The notes: generated by a model from the sequence alone, not told the origin. Shown: positions 9,281 through 18,543, counted from the stretch's first letter. The stretch is DNA of 64,000 nt from Cyanobium sp. C1_MAG_00004 (GCA_027486935.1 JAIXOF010000107.1:1-64000); one strand, 5' to 3'. Made by a program: numbers and translations.

Positions 9281-10714
<1,434 letters not shown>

Positions 10715-10715
10715 C

Positions 10716-12353
10716 ATGGAACTGACCCTCTGGACCTATGAAGGGCCGCCCCACGTGGGTGCCCTGCGCATCGCCGACTCGATGGAGGGGGTGCATTACG
10801 TGCTGCACGCACCCCAGGGCGACACCTATGCCGACCTGCTGTTCACGATGATCGAGCGCCAGCAACGGCGCCCACCGGTCAGCTACACAACGTTTCAGGC
10901 CCGGGACCTGGGGGGCGACACGGCCGAGCTGGTCAAACGCACGATCGCCGAGGCGGTCGAGCGCTTCAGGCCCGAAGCGCTGCTGGTGGGCGAAAGCTGC
11001 ACCGCAGAGCTGATCCAGGACCAGCCCGGTGCCCTGGCCGCCGGCATGGACCTGGGGGGCATCCCGATGGTGAACCTGGAGCTGCCGGCCTACTCCAAAA
11101 AAGAGAACTGGGGCGCGGCTGAAACCTTCTACCAATTGGTGCGCACCCTGCTCAAACCGCAGCTGCCGCCGCCGGGCACGCCCAAGGCGGATCCCAGCCG
11201 CTGGCGTGCCGAGGGCCGTCGCCCGCGGGTGAACCTGCTGGGCGCCAGCCGCCTGGGCTTTCGCTGCCGCGATGACGTGCGCGAAATCACAGGCCTGCTG
11301 GCCAGCCATGGCGTGGACGTGGCGGTGGTGGCGCCGTTGGGAGCCCGGCCTGCGGACCTGATGGGCATCCCCACTGCCGACGCCAACGTCTGCCTCTATC
11401 CCGAGGTGGCGGGCCCGCTGTGCAGCTGGCTGGAGCGCAGCTTTGGCATGGCCACCGTCAAAACGGTACCGATCGGCGTCGGCGCCACCGTGACGTTTCT
11501 GCAGGAACTGCACCGGACCCTGGGGCTGGAATTGCCGGCAGGGTTGATCCCCGGCGACGATGGACGCTGCGACAGCGAACGGCACTCGCAGTTGCCCTGG
11601 TATTCGCGTTCGGTGGATTCGACGTATCTGACGGGCAAGCGGGTGTTCATCTTTGGCGACGCCAGCCACGCCATCGCCGCCGCCCGCATCGCCAGCCGCG
11701 AACTGGGCTTTCAGGTGGTCGGCCTGGGCACCTACAGCCGTGAGCTGGCCCGCGAGGTGCGCGCCGCCGCCGCCGAACTAGGCCTGGAGGCCTTGATCTC
11801 AGACGACTACCTGGCGGTCGAAGCCGCCATGGCCGAGGCCGCCCCCGAGCTGGTGCTGGGCACCCAGATGGAACGCCACAGCGCCAAGCGCCTTGGTGTC
11901 CCCTGCGCGGTGATCAGCGCCCCGCTGCATGTGCAGGACGTGCCGGCCCGCTACAGCCCGGTGATGGGCTTTGAGGGTGCCAACGTGCTGTTTGACAGTT
12001 GGGTGCACCCCCTGATGATGGGCCTGGAGGAACACCTGATCGGGATGTTCCGCCATGACTTCGAGTTTGTCGACGGGCACCGCAGCCACCTGGGCGAGGG
12101 GGCGCCTTCGGCTGGGTCATCTGGGGCATCTGGGTCATCTGGGGTCTCGCTCGCTGAACCGCCATCAACCGGGGCTCCCGCCACGGCAGGGGAGCTCTGC
12201 TGGTCCTCTGAGGGGGAAGCCGAGCTGGCCAAGATCCCCTTCTTTGTGCGCCCCAAGGTGCGCCGCAACACCGAGGCCTTTGCGCGCGAACGGGGCATCG
12301 GGGCCATCACCGATGAGGTGCTCTACGAAGCCAAAGCCCACTACAGCCGTTGA
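10716..12353 (+). CDS. chlB: Light-independent protochlorophyllide reductase subunit B
   Basis: Partner of ChlN in the DPOR catalytic component. It begins [20 protein letters not shown] and contains [33 protein letters not shown] and HLGEGAP near residue 465. The C-terminal domain ends [21 protein letters not shown]. Between the two lies a low-complexity Ser/Gly/Ala/Pro linker (about residues 469-500) encoded by short GGGTCATCTGGGGCATCT-like repeats. This is longer than in homologues I recall and seems to be an expansion of the natural hinge before the C-terminal domain. The start lies one base after the chlN stop. Nothing resembling chlL follows directly; two sensor cassettes intervene. Confidence 0.95.
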
Positions 12354-12360
12354 ACATGTG

Positions 12361-12426
12361 CGGTAGTTGTGCGGCCAGCACCGCCAGCCATGACAACGAT
12401 CGGTAGAGCCAACTGAGCACCTACCG
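12361..12426. promoter_or_regulatory. CGGTAG repeats before the first histidine kinase gene
   Basis: CGGTAG occurs at 12361-12366 and 12401-12406 and its complement CTACCG at 12421-12426, spaced in multiples of 20 bp, that is close to two helical turns. The last pair forms a dyad with a 14-base centre ending 12 nt before the GTG start of the kinase. The spacing suggests sites on one helical face for a regulator, possibly one encoded in the cassette. Support is from pattern only. Confidence 0.3.
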
Positions 12427-12438
12427 CTCCCGCCCAGC

Positions 12439-13515
12439 GTGCGACTGCAGGACGACCGCGCCAACCACCCCAGGCTCCTGGTTGTGCTGGCCCTGGCGGT
12501 GGTGCTGGGGGTGATCACCGAGCGCAGCGTCGGTCGTGACTACGGCATCCAACTCAGTTCATGGCTGGCGATCGTGCCGGTGGTGATCGGCAGCATGGTG
12601 TTCAGGCCTCGGGATGAAGGGGTTCTCGCTGGCGTCTTCATCGGGATCAACCTGATTGAGGCCCTCAGTCGGGGGGGTGAAACCGCCAATGGAGCCGCCG
12701 CGCGGCTGGCCGCCCGCAGCCTGGTGGTCGGCCTGTGCGTCTGGACGGCGCATTTGCGCACCGAGTTGCGGCGCCAACGGGACATCAGCCTCAAGGCCGC
12801 CGCCATGGCCCACGAAATTCGCCAACCGTTGACGGCACTGCAGTTGAACAGCCGCCATCTGCTCCATTCCCTGGAACAGATGGATGCCGTCGAACCTCGG
12901 ATCCTTGACGGGATCAAACGGCTGCTCAGCAGCAGCGATCAACTCGGCGAAACCATGGTGGTGATGACGGCCTTGCTGGGCAGCCCGAACCAGCCCCGGC
13001 AAACGGTGGATCTTGCCGCCGTTCTGCGGGAGCTGCTGAGCAGCAGCCTGGCGGACGATCTGGGCAACGCTGGTGTGCAGCTGCGCTGCGAGGGCCTGGA
13101 GCAGCCCCAGATGGTGCTGGGAAAAGCCGAAGAACTGCGGATTGTCTGCCGCAACGTGGTCAACAACGCCATCGAGGCCCTGCAGGCGGTCCCCATCGCC
13201 CAGCGGCAGCTGCTGGTGAGACTGCAGCGCGGCCGCAAGATGATCCGGCTGACGATTGCCGACTCAGGGCCGGGCCTGCCCGCCCTGGAGCTCGAAAAAG
13301 TGCAATTGCGGTCCAGCAAACCCCAGGGCATGGGGCTGGGGCTGCACACCGCCGGGGCGATCCTGGCCCAACTGGGTGGACAGCTGTCGCTGGAGCGATC
13401 GAGCGAGCTGGGCGGTGCGGCAGTGGTGATCAGCTTCCCCTGCCAGGTGGATGGCTCAAGCCCGCCACCCGCTGCAGCACGGCTGCACGCACCAGCTCGG
13501 CACCGCTCAGATTGA
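12439..13515 (+). CDS. Membrane sensor histidine kinase, cassette 1
   Basis: Two-component sensor kinase of 358 residues. About three or four hydrophobic helices span residues 12-103, followed by a short linker. The HisKA domain has the phospho-accepting His125 in AMAHEIRQPLTAL. The HATPase domain has N box NVVNNAIEAL (239-248), G1 DSGPGLP (275-281) and G2 GMGLGLHT (297-304). There is no PAS domain. The start is a GTG at 12439, immediately behind a dyad. The gene converges on a LuxR-type response regulator and overlaps it by 86 nt, and a paralogous kinase follows at 14.5 kb with the same surroundings. Signal and target are unknown; location between chlB and chlL suggests, without proof, a link to light, oxygen or pigment state. 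Confidence 0.88.
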   Translation: MRLQDDRANHPRLLVVLALAVVLGVITERSVGRDYGIQLSSWLAIVPVVIGSMVFRPRDEGVLAGVFIGINLIEALSRGGETANGAAARLAARSLVVGLCVWTAHLRTELRRQRDISLKAAAMAHEIRQPLTALQLNSRHLLHSLEQMDAVEPRILDGIKRLLSSSDQLGETMVVMTALLGSPNQPRQTVDLAAVLRELLSSSLADDLGNAGVQLRCEGLEQPQMVLGKAEELRIVCRNVVNNAIEALQAVPIAQRQLLVRLQRGRKMIRLTIADSGPGLPALELEKVQLRSSKPQGMGLGLHTAGAILAQLGGQLSLERSSELGGAAVVISFPCQVDGSSPPPAAARLHAPARHRSD

Positions 13516-14080
13516 GCTTGGCACTGATGGCCTTGCGATAGGTCTCGACCGTGGCCATGGTCAGTCCCTGCTCCTGGGCGATCTGCTTGTTGAGCAGGCC
13601 CCTGCCCAGGGCCAGAAACAGGCGCAACTCGCGCGGTGACAGGCGATGCAGCGGCAGCTCTCCGGCCTGATTGCCGCCCTGGCTGCCAGGACGCGCGACA
13701 GCATCGGCGCTGCGTAGCCAGCCATGCACGACGGCCAGCAGGTCGTTCCAGGCGCGGGACTTGGCCACCACGCCCAGCACGATGGAGCTGTACTCGGGTG
13801 GTGGGGTGAACTGGTCGCCAGAGGCGCTCAGAAACACAAGCCTGCCCTGGGGATTGAGCCGTTGCAGGGCAGACGCCGCGTCCTGCCAGCGTTCACCGGG
13901 AAGGTCGAGATCGAGGATCAACAGATCGGGACAATCCCGCTCCATCTGGGCGATCGCCTCGGCCACGGTGTGGCACACCACGACCAGCTCGAACCCGCAC
14001 AGTTCACTGAGCAGCCCGCCAACCGCCTGGGCGACCAACTGGTGGTCATCCACCACCAGACAGCGCAACGGCGTTGCCAT
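13430..14080 (-). CDS. NarL/FixJ-type response regulator, cassette 1
   Basis: Two-component output regulator of 216 residues. The receiver domain has the acidic pair Asp11-Asp12 (VVDDHQLVAQAV), the phospho-acceptor Asp57 in LLILDLDLPGE and the Lys near 107 in VVAKSRAW. The C-terminal DNA-binding domain is a LuxR helix-turn-helix (LSPRELRLFLALGRGLLNKQ, then MATVETYRKAISAKL). It is read toward the kinase on the other strand and overlaps its 3' end by 86 nt. It is divergent from a small ribbon-helix-helix gene, with 130 nt between starts. It is closely similar to the regulator of cassette 2, for example in LVAQAVGGLLSELC. Confidence 0.92.
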   Translation of the reverse strand: MATPLRCLVVDDHQLVAQAVGGLLSELCGFELVVVCHTVAEAIAQMERDCPDLLILDLDLPGERWQDAASALQRLNPQGRLVFLSASGDQFTPPPEYSSIVLGVVAKSRAWNDLLAVVHGWLRSADAVARPGSQGGNQAGELPLHRLSPRELRLFLALGRGLLNKQIAQEQGLTMATVETYRKAISAKLNLSGAELVRAAVLQRVAGLSHPPGRGS

Positions 14081-14123
14081 GACGCTTCACAGACACTGTC
14101 CTGAGCAAACGCAACCTGAGGGG

Positions 14124-14137
14124 TCCCACCATTGGGA
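14124..14137. promoter_or_regulatory. TCCCA/TGGGA dyad in the divergent region of cassette 1
   Basis: TCCCA-CCAT-TGGGA lies between the divergent response regulator (start 14080) and RHH gene (start 14211). The equivalent spacer of cassette 2 has a longer CCCCAA/TTGGGG palindrome. A CCCA/TGGG half-site in both makes an operator for the RHH protein or the response regulator plausible. Five-base arms alone are weak evidence. Confidence 0.3.
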
Positions 14138-14210
14138 AGCCCAGAATCAGGAGCTTCTCAGATGCAGGCGCGATCCCAAACACTGAAGGGAGGTTCACTC
14201 CCGATTCACC

Positions 14211-14390
14211 ATGAACGCATTCAGCAACGATCTGGCCCCTGCCTTCCGCAGCTCGCAGCGGATCTCAATCACCCTGCCCCATCACGTGGCCCGCTGCCTG
14301 CAACAACGCTGTGACGACGAGGGGCGATCCCTGAGCAACCTGGCGGCCTACCTGCTGGAGTCGACACTGACACAGTCACGCCAGGGGTGA
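14211..14390 (+). CDS. Ribbon-helix-helix (CopG-like) small DNA-binding protein, cassette 1
   Basis: A 59-residue protein with the ribbon-helix-helix pattern. The beta strand is QRISITLPHHV (residues 16-26), then helix A, the turn GRSLSNLAAYL (38-48) and helix B. Such dimers bind palindromic operators and often repress their own promoter. It shares about 26 of 40 core positions with the RHH protein of cassette 2. GGGAGG lies 17 nt upstream of the ATG at 14211. Its last codons form the first copy of an 18-bp tandem repeat that continues past the stop. No toxin partner is visible next to it, so an antitoxin role is not supported. Confidence 0.75.
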   Translation: MNAFSNDLAPAFRSSQRISITLPHHVARCLQQRCDDEGRSLSNLAAYLLESTLTQSRQG

Positions 14391-14410
14391 CTGTCACGCC
14401 AGGGGTGACG
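14375..14410. repeat. Two-copy 18-bp tandem repeat with dyad symmetry
   Basis: GTCACGCCAGGGGTGACT is repeated in tandem at 14375-14392 and 14393-14410; the last base of the second copy differs. Each unit has GTCAC and GTGAC arms. Copy one spans the stop of the RHH gene. Copy two ends at a weak promoter-like pair, GTGACG (14405-14410) and TTATAC (14428-14433) at 17-nt spacing, in front of the second kinase. It could be an operator pair. Confidence 0.55.
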
Positions 14411-14501
14411 GCGTAACCGGTTGCATTTTATACATTGACCAAGGCAGATGGGCTATTCAGCTATAGCCCTGGATGCCGATTGCAACAAATTAAAAATAAT
14501 T

Positions 14502-14515
14502 GGGGGGGGGGGGGG
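14502..14515 (+). repeat. G14 homopolymer in the leader of the second kinase gene
   Basis: Fourteen consecutive G lie 37 nt upstream of the ATG at 14552. An open frame beginning with TTG at 14435 runs through the tract into the kinase, so a change in tract length would alter any upstream translation or the promoter-to-start distance. Such tracts slip during replication and are also hard to sequence correctly, so the exact length is uncertain. Confidence 0.7.
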
Positions 14516-14551
14516 ATTGATGCAATCCTTCTGGACTGCAATTCTGGCTCG

Positions 14552-15970
14552 ATGCAAGGACTGCAATCCAGCCAGAGGCTGACAGTGCTGCTGATCCTGG
14601 CCACGGCCGGGCTTTATGCCCTGGACCTGCAGCTGGCCGCCAGCAGTGACCACATCCTGAGCGGGATGTACTTTCTGCCGTTCATCGCTGGGATGGTTTG
14701 CTTGCCACTGGCACCCCTGAGCCTGCTGGCCGCCCTGGTGTGGGCGTTGGCGCTCGTCAGCACCCAATTGGGACCTGAGGTTGCCGGCAGCACCCCCACC
14801 CTGTATGTGCTCGTGGAGACGGCCGCCATCGGCCTGTGCCTCTGGGCTGCCAGGCTGCGCGACCGGCTCGAGCGCACCAGGGTTCTTGTCGAGACGATGC
14901 AACGGCACGCACCGGTCGGCATTGCCCTGCTGGATCAGCAGGGCCGCATCAACCAGCTCAATCCCGCCATGGAGCAACTGCTTGCCCAGGACGGCCAACT
15001 GCTGCTGGGTCAACCCTGGGAGACCCTGAGCAGCCACAGGGCCGAAGCCGGTGAAGCCCGCTGCCAGCAACTGCGAACCCCCAACGGCTGGCGCCACGTC
15101 GATGTGGTCTGCAGGGTCTGGCCGGGTGCAGTGAACGGGCGGGACCAGGGCCTGTTGGTCCAGGCCCTCGACTGCCAGCAGAGGGTTGAAGCCCAAGAAG
15201 CCCTGCAGGCTGAACGCAACCAACTGCAGCAGACCCTGCGCACCAGCCTGCTGAGCTCGGCCCTGGTGCACGAGATCAAGCAACCCCTGGCTGCACTGCT
15301 GCTGCAATGCCGACGGCTGCTGATCCAACAGGAACAGGAGCCTGAGGTCAGCCGAGGGTTCGGAACCCAGCTCGGTGAGGTGCTGAGCAGCGCCGAACAG
15401 CTGCAGCGCAGCGTCGATGCCGTGGCCGTGCTCTTGCGCCATGGCGACCACGAGCCCCCATCAGAGCCCTTCGATCTGTGCGCACTGATCAACAGCTGCC
15501 TGAGCGCCCAGACCCCATGGATGACAGCACGCCATGTGGTCGTGGATCAGGTCGGGTTCGAGCAGCCCCTGGCGATCAGGGGCGAGCCAGGCATTGTGCG
15601 GATCCTGGTGGACAACCTGTTGCGCAATGGCCTGGAGGCGCTCGAGGCCTGCCCCGCCGGTCAGCGACGGCTGCAACTGGTGCTGAGGCGGCTGCCTCCC
15701 AATGTGGAGCTGACCATCTCGGACAGCGGCCCCGGATTGCCCGACACTGCGCTCAACAACCTGCGACTGCGCTCGAGCAAACCGTCGGGGCTGGGGATTG
15801 GGCTGTTCACCGCCGAAACGATCGCCCAGCAACACGGCGGCAACCTGGAGGCTGGGCGCTGTCCCCAGCTGGGAGGCGCGTCACTGCGACTCACTCTGCC
15901 TCTGGGCAGGGGTCAGGGTCTGGCAGGCAACGGTGCAGCACCGCCAGACGCACCAGCTCAGAACCGCTGA
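14552..15970 (+). CDS. Membrane sensor histidine kinase with PAS domain, cassette 2
   Basis: Paralogue of the kinase at 12439. From the ATG at 14552 it has 472 residues: about four hydrophobic helices (10-100), a PAS-like domain (about 112-215, VGIALLDQQGRINQLNPAME), a coiled linker, HisKA with His240 in ALVHEIKQPLAAL, and HATPase with NLLRNGLEAL (355-364), DSGPGLP (391-397) and GLGIGLFT (413-420). The helix-linker junction (AIGLCLWAARLRDRLE) mirrors kinase 1 (LVVGLCVWTAHLRTEL), which lacks the PAS domain. A TTG start at 14435 is possible but would translate through the G14 tract. The 3' end overlaps the convergent response regulator by 80 nt. The signal is unknown. Confidence 0.88.
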   Translation: MQGLQSSQRLTVLLILATAGLYALDLQLAASSDHILSGMYFLPFIAGMVCLPLAPLSLLAALVWALALVSTQLGPEVAGSTPTLYVLVETAAIGLCLWAARLRDRLERTRVLVETMQRHAPVGIALLDQQGRINQLNPAMEQLLAQDGQLLLGQPWETLSSHRAEAGEARCQQLRTPNGWRHVDVVCRVWPGAVNGRDQGLLVQALDCQQRVEAQEALQAERNQLQQTLRTSLLSSALVHEIKQPLAALLLQCRRLLIQQEQEPEVSRGFGTQLGEVLSSAEQLQRSVDAVAVLLRHGDHEPPSEPFDLCALINSCLSAQTPWMTARHVVVDQVGFEQPLAIRGEPGIVRILVDNLLRNGLEALEACPAGQRRLQLVLRRLPPNVELTISDSGPGLPDTALNNLRLRSSKPSGLGIGLFTAETIAQQHGGNLEAGRCPQLGGASLRLTLPLGRGQGLAGNGAAPPDAPAQNR

Positions 15971-16523
15971 TGCCCAACTTGCTGCAGATCACCTTGCGAT
16001 AGGACTCGACTGTGCCCACACTGAGCCCCAGCGCAGTGGCCACCTCGCGATTGAGCAGCCCCTGACCCAGGCACAGGAACACACGCTGTTCCCGCGGCGA
16101 GAGCATCGCGAACACCGGCAGGGTGCAACGGGCCGGGGGAGCTGATCGGTCCGGCAGACGCTGGTGGCGCCAGCCGCCGACCAGGCCGATCAGATCGTTC
16201 CAGGCCCTGCTCTTGTCGACCACCCCCAACAGCGATGGCGCCAACCAGGTTGGGGTCACAAAAGTGTCTGCCAGGCCAGTCAGGATCAGAACCTTGCCCG
16301 CTGGGTTGCGATGCAGAAACATCTGGGCAACGGTCTCCCAGGATTCGCCGGGCAGATGCAGGTCCTGGACCAGAAGATCGGGCCTGGCCTGCTCCAGGAC
16401 CTGCAGAGCTTGGCGGCCCGAACCGCAGACAGCCTCGAGGTCAAGATCACAGAGTTCACTGAGCAGTCCCCCGACAGCCTGGGCGACAAGCAGATGATCA
16501 TCGACCACGAGGACTCTGTGCAT
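15891..16523 (-). CDS. NarL/FixJ-type response regulator, cassette 2
   Basis: A 210-residue regulator paralogous to the one at 13430. The receiver has Asp8-Asp9, phospho-acceptor Asp54 in LLVQDLHLPGE and VVDKSRAWNDL. The C-terminal LuxR domain reads LSPREQRVFLCLGQGLLNRE followed by VGTVESYRKVICSKLGI. It converges on its kinase with an 80-nt overlap and diverges from an RHH gene, with 137 nt between starts, repeating the arrangement of cassette 1. Shared residues such as LVAQAVGGLLSELC show that the cassette arose by duplication. Cross-talk with kinase 1 is possible and untested. Confidence 0.92.
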   Translation of the reverse strand: MHRVLVVDDHLLVAQAVGGLLSELCDLDLEAVCGSGRQALQVLEQARPDLLVQDLHLPGESWETVAQMFLHRNPAGKVLILTGLADTFVTPTWLAPSLLGVVDKSRAWNDLIGLVGGWRHQRLPDRSAPPARCTLPVFAMLSPREQRVFLCLGQGLLNREVATALGLSVGTVESYRKVICSKLGISGSELVRLAVLHRCLPDPDPCPEAE

Positions 16524-16579
16524 GCTTGGATCGCGATGACCTTATTGTCCAGGTCAGTCAAGGCCTGCAGGCTGATGCA

Positions 16580-16600
16580 CCCCAACTTTGGGGCCCCAAA
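16580..16600. promoter_or_regulatory. Overlapping palindromes in the divergent region of cassette 2
   Basis: CCCCAA-CT-TTGGGG (16580-16593) shares its right arm with the perfect 14-bp palindrome TTTGGGGCCCCAAA (16587-16600). Both lie between the divergent starts of the response regulator (16523) and the RHH gene (16661). Three alternating half-sites in 21 bp suit cooperative binding of RHH dimers, which contact short adjacent half-sites. It lacks a T-tract, so an operator is likelier than a terminator. Confidence 0.5.
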
Positions 16601-16660
16601 TCTGGCGCTGGTCGACATAGCTTACCTCCATCAGATTAGGCCTGTTCGCAGAACTATTCC

Positions 16661-16879
16661 ATGCAAACCCACGCGACGTCACAATCAAGTCGCTTTCGTG
16701 CACCGCAGCGCATCTCGATCACCCTGCCCCAGAACGTTTTTGATGCACTGCTGGATCGCAGCGCCATCGAGGGACGTTCCCTGAGCAACCTGTCGGCCTA
16801 CCTGCTGGAGTGCTCCCTGCGGGAGGACCCCAGAGGTGCGGGTGCTGCCACCTCGCCGGCGCGGCTGGCTCGGCACTGA
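16661..16879 (+). CDS. Ribbon-helix-helix (CopG-like) small DNA-binding protein, cassette 2
   Basis: A 72-residue protein with the same RHH fold as the one at 14211: strand QRISITLPQNV, helix A, then GRSLSNLSAYLLE, with a longer Ala/Pro/Arg-rich tail. The ATG at 16661 follows a 137-nt spacer containing strong palindromes. Its 3' end enters a 10-bp tandem repeat. Function is probably local transcriptional control; chlL begins 157 nt downstream on the same strand, so its promoter is also a candidate target. That target assignment is inference. Confidence 0.78.
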   Translation: MQTHATSQSSRFRAPQRISITLPQNVFDALLDRSAIEGRSLSNLSAYLLECSLREDPRGAGAATSPARLARH

Positions 16880-16914
16880 CCGGCACTAACCGGCACTGAA
16901 CAGCACTGACCGGC
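16871..16914. repeat. Ten-base tandem repeat before chlL
   Basis: CGGCACTGAC, CGGCACTAAC, CGGCACTGAA and CAGCACTGAC follow each other without gaps, then CGGC begins a fifth unit. The array starts inside the last codons of the second RHH gene and ends about 120 nt upstream of chlL. It may affect the spacing of upstream elements of the chlL promoter; no function is shown. Confidence 0.7.
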
Positions 16915-17030
16915 AACATGGCCTGGCAGTCGAGCCCATGCAGGCTGCCTTGGACCCAGCATGTTTCGCTTTGCACGCAAGCGTGGGCAGTTGCTGCATG
17001 CGGCTGTTGGATGAAGACAGACCCTGCTGA

Positions 17031-17921
<891 letters not shown>

Positions 17922-18543
17922 TTTTGCTCAGCCTGATTTTGCTCAGCCTGGCTTTGCTTCGCCTAATTCAGTTTCGGCGGCTGGGTTCAGCCTGACTGGG
18001 TTCAGTTGGCCGGATTCAATCTGAGTGGTTTCAGTTGGCTGGGTTCTATCTGAGTGGGTCCAGTCGGACTGAGTTCAGCCTGACTGGGTTCAGCCTGCTG
18101 GGCTTGGCGTGAACGGATTACGCCTGGGATGGTCAGGAAGGCGAAGGTGAACCTTCACGGACCTTGGCGTGACTGGCGGGCCATGCCTGATCTGCGCGAC
18201 TGCGGAAAGACCGTTCATGTCGACGCAATGCCTCGGAATTCCCCTTAGCAGTGATGACATGTAATCACTGCTAAGGACGTGATACACATTGGAACCCGTA
18301 CCCGGATGTCGCCAAGCCGGGCCAAACCAAGCCAACCCGAGCCAAGCGAAACCGAGCCAAACCAAGCCAAGCCGAGCCAAACCGAACCAACTCAAGCCAA
18401 GCAGAGCAAACCCACGGCAAACCGAGCCATCTGATCCGGCCCCATCTGATGCGGACCCATCTGATGCGGTCCCTTGTGATTCGGTCCCTTGTGATCCGGC
18501 CCAATCTCATCCAATCCCATCAGCAGTGTGAAAGCTGCTGCGG
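17922..18543. repeat. Gene-free, repeat-rich spacer between chlL and por
   Basis: No credible gene is present. The left third consists of imperfect units around GGGTTCAGCCTGACT and GCTCAGCCTGATTTT. A 34-nt palindrome sits at 18243-18276. From about 18300 to 18440 degenerate five-base units (GCCAA, ACCAA, GCGAA) alternate, followed by CCATCTGATGCGG-type repeats to about 18515. Frames through the right part only spell repetitive Pro/Ser/Lys/Gln. A weak CAGCAG/CTGCTG hairpin (18521-18540) lies just beyond the por stop. Confidence 0.75.
18243..18276. repeat. Long near-perfect palindrome between chlL and por
   Basis: CCTTAGCAGTGAT and ATCACTGCTAAGG are perfect 13-base complements around GACATGTA, whose centre ACATGT is again palindromic; only one base pair of the 34-nt element mismatches. 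No T-run follows on either strand, so simple Rho-independent termination is not obvious. A hairpin barrier between the two convergent transcripts, or a high-affinity operator, both fit. Confidence 0.75.

Follow-up and report, generated by a model that had tools for sequence, protein, structure and literature searches.

A divergent response regulator and ribbon-helix-helix gene pair of Cyanobiaceae, found with and without a histidine kinase, and the tandem dyad in its spacer

Two kinase/regulator/RHH modules between chlB and chlL

The window, that is, the whole 64,000-nt stretch of Cyanobium sp. C1_MAG_00004 that was analysed (JAIXOF010000107.1:1-64000), carries a cassette region at 12361-16914 in which two successive modules repeat the order histidine kinase (+), NarL-type response regulator (-), and ribbon-helix-helix (RHH) protein (+). 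ORF calls and domain profiles agreed on all six genes and on the orientations given in the initial annotation. The flanking genes chlB (10716-12353, + strand) and chlL (17037-17921, + strand) were both assigned by their ORFs and NCBIfam equivalog cut-offs, which verified that the modules split the DPOR genes. In module 1, the membrane kinase HK1 (12439-13515, +) starts 86 bp 3' of the chlB stop and contains HisKA, HATPase_c and about four hydrophobic segments, counted by eye. It is followed by the regulator RR1 (13430-14080, -), with an intact DD/D/K receiver, and by RHH1 (14211-14390, +), a divergent gene for a 59-aa RHH_5/CopG-like protein. Module 2 consists of HK2 (14552-15970, +), a membrane kinase with an extra PAS domain, RR2 (15891-16523, -), also with an intact receiver, and RHH2 (16661-16879, +), which is divergent from RR2, encodes a 72-aa RHH_5/CopG-like protein and ends 157 bp before chlL in the same orientation. 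The HK2 ORF is open from 14435, and the ATG at 14552 is its likeliest start. In each module, the kinase gene converges on the regulator gene, and their 3' ends share 86 bp (HK1/RR1) or 80 bp (HK2/RR2).

Both kinases have a DHp motif and the HATPase_c N and G boxes, with the motifs HE..QP, N, DSGpGLP and GxGxG conserved. HATPase_c scored above its cut-off in each (E 8e-13 and 3e-11), and HisKA was detected slightly under the Pfam cut-off (E 7e-5 and 2e-4). The two regulators are two-component response regulators of the NarL/FixJ type, with Response_reg and GerE domains and complete receivers (VVDDH, D57, K107); their best solved relatives were VraR, EvgA, NarL and DevR. The RHH proteins scored 48.2 and 29.1 bits against the RHH_5 cut-off of 26, and no sequence-related solved structure was found for them with a query alignment that included one misframed row (L043). 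A search for RNA families found none.

The regulators were 50% identical over 202 aa (E 4e-61), the RHH proteins at 28/48 positions (E 1e-16), and the kinases 37% over 250 aa (E 8e-36), with LRSSKP common to both kinases and LVAQAVGGLLSELC to both regulators. The homology of each pair is thus far beyond chance, and the paralogy noted in the initial annotation was borne out. Its description of the cassette as duplicated was right as to paralogy, but not in the sense of a recent local copy. RR2 and RHH2 grouped in the trees with the single chl-locus units of two congeners (G003 and G001), and module 1 grouped with kinase-less regulator-RHH pairs elsewhere, including a second pair of G003 beside ychF. 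Since the modules have different nearest relatives, the trees and the identities ruled out a recent tandem duplication. As judged from both, the cassette is two old units of different ancestry brought together in one chlB-chlL gap.

The regulator, the RHH gene and the kinase across Cyanobiaceae

Regulator homologues were collected by searching relatives and 400 genomes of the family, and their surroundings were fetched and annotated with profiles. The regulator tree separated a clade holding the window regulators from a sister clade with 100/100 support. A divergent RHH gene accompanied 20/20 regulators of the window clade versus 0/16 of the sister clade, with spacers of 138-306 bp between profile matches. 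These 20 loci came from 18 genomes in six genera, all Cyanobiaceae, including Vulcanococcus and Synechococcaceae MAGs. Sampling of genomes across the class yielded no clade member outside Cyanobiaceae, and genus-wide searches of three genera returned none beyond those already known. With only seven RHH_5 genes in the 3 Mb of the window's genome, the probability of chance adjacency should be negligible. Counts of pairing and of receiver state across loci are raw and phylogenetically correlated.

The initial annotation had proposed looking in other cyanobacterial genomes for the two genes in divergent orientation and had regarded unlinked homologues as evidence against a permanent three-component pairing. 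Since the RHH gene was linked to the clade regulator at every locus in all six genera, this comparison did not refute the pairing. The claim held for the regulator and the RHH gene, but not for the kinase, which was absent from half of the loci. From this distribution, the constant core of the unit is the regulator with its RHH gene, and the kinase is optional. Distance matrices of the two proteins were correlated (Mantel r 0.61, 0/5000 permutations; 0.51 without near-copies), a correlation that stems partly from common ancestry. Support in the RHH tree was low because the protein is short. Two basal sister-clade loci, L127 and L129, may represent an intermediate arrangement: the kinase gene converges on the regulator gene and overlaps it by 4 and 55 bp, respectively, and farther along the kinase strand there is an RHH gene.

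RHH folds are frequent among antitoxins, and the unit was found at several genomic places, as might be expected if the RHH protein served as an antitoxin or belonged to a mobile element, with selfish co-transfer accounting for the linkage. We considered this highly improbable, in that no toxin-like partner adjoins the RHH genes, which precede HK2 and chlL, neither RHH protein had a PADLOC or PHROG match, and the unit is distributed in one family with broadly congruent regulator and RHH histories.

The kinase was present at 10/20 clade loci, in each case convergent with the regulator gene and overlapping it by 23-101 bp. At the ten remaining loci, no kinase was found nearby even at loose thresholds, and a genome-wide search of these genomes found no equivalent kinase elsewhere except the chl-locus kinase of G003. 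The other best matches in these genomes scored about as well as the kinases found with regulators of the sister clade. The acidic pair of the receiver was DD at all ten loci with a kinase and damaged at all ten without one (AD, TN, DR, DE or deleted), and the ten kinase-less relatives did not qualify as response-regulator receivers. The association had a Fisher p of 1e-5 on raw counts, and no fewer than three changes of state are needed to fit the tree. In one genus, the order P-type ATPase / RHH / regulator / (kinase) / trehalose-phosphate synthase-like gene was kept with and without the kinase, which seems to have been lost there in situ. Linkage, together with the joint loss of the kinase and the receiver residues, suggests that the kinase may transfer phosphate to the regulator.

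A tandem dyad in the divergent spacer

A motif search revealed that the spacer shared by the regulator and the RHH gene bears a tandem dyad, CCC-N6/7-GG[GA] occurring twice. In the window, it was located at 14125-14157 (+ strand; CCCACCATTGGGAAGCCCAGAATCAGG) 5' of RHH1 and at 16580-16611 (+ strand; CCCCAACTTTGGGGCCCCAAATCTGG) 5' of RHH2. Unbiased enumeration of spaced trinucleotides ranked CCC-N7-GGA (16/21 spacers) and CCC-N6-GGG (14/21) at the top, whereas in 40 shuffled sets the most frequent dyad reached no more than 9. A weight matrix was then trained on paired loci, leaving out in turn each locus together with its near relatives, and the motif position was recovered in 19/21 spacers. For module 2 of the window, the match was on the other strand and no more than 2 bp away, as expected of a near-palindrome. 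The scoring failed at L128, which has the most decayed regulator, and was weak at L062. The dyad lies 64 +/- 11 bp (about 50-90) from the RHH start, versus 110 +/- 50 bp from the regulator start. At four related loci (L122-L125), the motif ends at CTTGAC and AATACT follows about 17 bp on; these were assigned by eye as -35 and -10 elements. A consensus promoter scan found no promoter in the window, and the promoter and terminator scan was uninformative.

The tandem dyad was not seen at sister-clade regulators, at RHH genes lacking an adjacent regulator in related loci, or upstream of the three RHH paralogues of the window's genome with scorable upstream sequence. Across that genome, the dyad pattern had 9 matches and a reversed control pattern had 12, indicating no enrichment of a regulon. 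Two other motif matches in the window (23138 and 5452) were rejected as sites, both being inside ORFs.

In NarL sites, two inverted heptamers are separated by 2 bp (7-2-7). The CCC-N6-GGG spacing fits this arrangement, and perfect heptamers (TACCCAT, TACCTAT) were present only in L124 and L125. The dyad half-site T[AG]GG resembles both the NarL half-site TACYYMT (PMC4886647) and the PedR recognition motif RWWTRGGYNNYY with its TRGG core (PMC13421787). Because half-sites of the TRGG type are recognised by both NarL and PedR, binding of the dyad is more readily ascribed to the regulator, although this is not proof. Because the regulator and RHH genes are both present wherever the dyad occurs, the dyad could instead be bound by the RHH protein. 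On that reading, it would be the RHH operator, through which the RHH protein represses itself and the regulator gene, and the regulator would have its targets elsewhere. Autorepression is common among RHH proteins, and dyads repeated in tandem at a constant spacing could accommodate RHH dimers in pairs. TrcR, an RHH protein of cyanobacteria, occupies the region of the -10 box in its own promoter (PMC10272220). The motif, however, is absent from unpaired RHH genes and from the three scorable paralogues, stops 5' of the -35 element without covering the -10, and has the NarL- and PedR-like half-site described above. Taken together, an RHH operator is a real possibility, though one that we regard as rather doubtful.

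Chlorophyll genes and the proposed role of the unit

The initial annotation had suggested that the cassette controls dark chlorophyll synthesis. In keeping with a dedicated regulator of DPOR (chlN, chlB, chlL) in the dark or at low oxygen, the window has two modules between chlB and chlL, G003 and G001 have one each, and G002 has a regulator fragment and an RHH gene 5' of chlL. A LuxR-type protein, PedR, activates chlL, chlN and chlB in Synechocystis (PMC4500134, PMC13421787). This location, however, was restricted to the window's genus, and in other genera the flanking sequence retrieved around the unit (roughly 3-9 kb, contigs permitting) contained no DPOR gene. The unit elsewhere adjoins a P-type ATPase and a trehalose-phosphate synthase-like gene, a PEP-utilising enzyme, ychF or chlD. 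Direct adjacency of chlB and chlL, with chlB 5', was seen in most of the other genera checked. The gap also accepts other genes: in the congener G004 (L185:2808-8985) it holds several, including an HlyD-type efflux adaptor, and in G003 it also contains a LysR-like gene. The chlL upstream element TGTTTCGCTTTGCA (16962-16975, + strand), identified by comparison across congeners and G014, was kept in congeners with the cassette, in those with another insert, and without any insert in G014, which belongs to another genus. The tandem dyad was absent upstream of chlN, HK1, HK2 and chlL in the window, where the chlN region had a lone CCC-N7-GGA match at 9327. With the location restricted to one genus, a gap open to other genes, an element independent of the cassette and no tandem dyad at chl promoters, control of chl genes was unsupported, and we regard a dedicated DPOR regulator as quite improbable. 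From these comparisons, the chlB-chlL gap appears to be an insertion site in the window's genus and not the general target of the unit. Because RHH2 lies 157 bp 5' of chlL and HK1 86 bp 3' of chlB, all co-oriented, read-through into chl genes could occur, and transcription from the RHH2 promoter may possibly extend into chlL.

Two further observations were made on chl genes. At L117:4493-6553, a kinase-less regulator-RHH pair is convergent with an adjacent gene for a ChlD-like magnesium chelatase subunit, which may be coincidence. Identity of chlL was 83-99% within the family and fell to about 54% for almost all of the sampled cyanobacteria outside it, and one genome from outside the family, G094, had a chlL 84% identical; these values suggest horizontal transfer of DPOR genes.

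We consider it moderately probable that the locus represents a conserved Cyanobiaceae unit in which the regulator acts through the dyads to control the RHH promoter, the RHH protein is the output, and the kinase is optional. Three parts of this model can be read directly from the sequences, namely the obligate pairing, the spacer dyad at a near-fixed distance from the RHH gene, and the damage to the receiver whenever the kinase is absent. Regulator dimers would bind the tandem dyads just 5' of the RHH -35 element and thereby regulate the RHH gene, activation being likelier than repression. The RHH protein would act as the output repressor, probably with autoregulation. At loci with a kinase, the kinase would tune the regulator by phosphorylation; where it was lost, the regulator would have become a phosphorylation-independent pseudo-receiver protein acting at the same promoter.

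This unit resembles NarL/FixJ two-component systems in its receiver-GerE regulator, HisKA/HATPase kinase and TRGG-type dyad sites. It differs from them in that the kinase gene is convergent and overlapping rather than co-operonic, a divergent RHH gene is obligate, and the kinase was lost repeatedly. PedR of Synechocystis shares GerE/LuxR-type DNA binding and the motif with the TRGG core, but is a thioredoxin-sensitive one-component protein without a kinase or RHH partner (PMC13421787) and activates chlL, chlN and chlB, whose promoters here lack the tandem dyad. FciC of the CA4-A island in marine Synechococcus is alike by description, as an RHH protein of 55-67 aa whose gene adjoins those of other transcription factors, but its neighbours are the AraC-type FciA and FciB, not a response regulator and a kinase (PMC3877281). 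TrcR (Anabaena all0854) is likewise a small cyanobacterial RHH protein, autorepressing through its own promoter; it differs in having an 8-bp, TGTAGTAT-like site at the -10, and the accessible part of its description mentions no paired response regulator (PMC10272220). Pseudo-receiver regulators miss key phosphotransfer residues, as do the regulators of the ten kinase-less loci, and a review from 2025 described what switches bacterial pseudo-receivers on and off as a mystery (PMC12632262). Here, by comparison, the change can be traced within one clade, with the promoter site kept and in step with loss of the linked kinase. The clade is therefore a natural series: regulator, promoter site and partner gene stay the same, and the kinase is present at some loci and missing from others. 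Should the step from regulator to RHH gene be real, the unit would also be a compact means of converting a two-component signal into repression; the group is ecologically important, and its regulators are little known.

A further reading, which we judge unlikely, is that the regulator and the RHH protein make up a self-contained switch on one shared operator that has ceased to depend on a kinase, and that poly-G slippage could render phase-variable. On this reading, each loss of the kinase would convert the receiver into a pseudo-receiver and leave the switch in place. A G14 homopolymer (14502-14515, + strand) lies 5' of HK2 and is the only G/C run of at least 9 in the window. The spacers of L115, L116, L118 and L126 have G/C runs of 9-10, the sole runs of at least 8 in those 13-15 kb loci, and in L118 and L126 the run merges with a dyad arm. 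Phase variation based on slippage in such tracts is possible. Imperfect tandem repeats follow RHH2 at 16871-16915 (CGGCACTGAC, 4.5 copies), and others with 10-35-bp units occupy 17918-18512, between chlL and a downstream short-chain dehydrogenase gene that is probably por.
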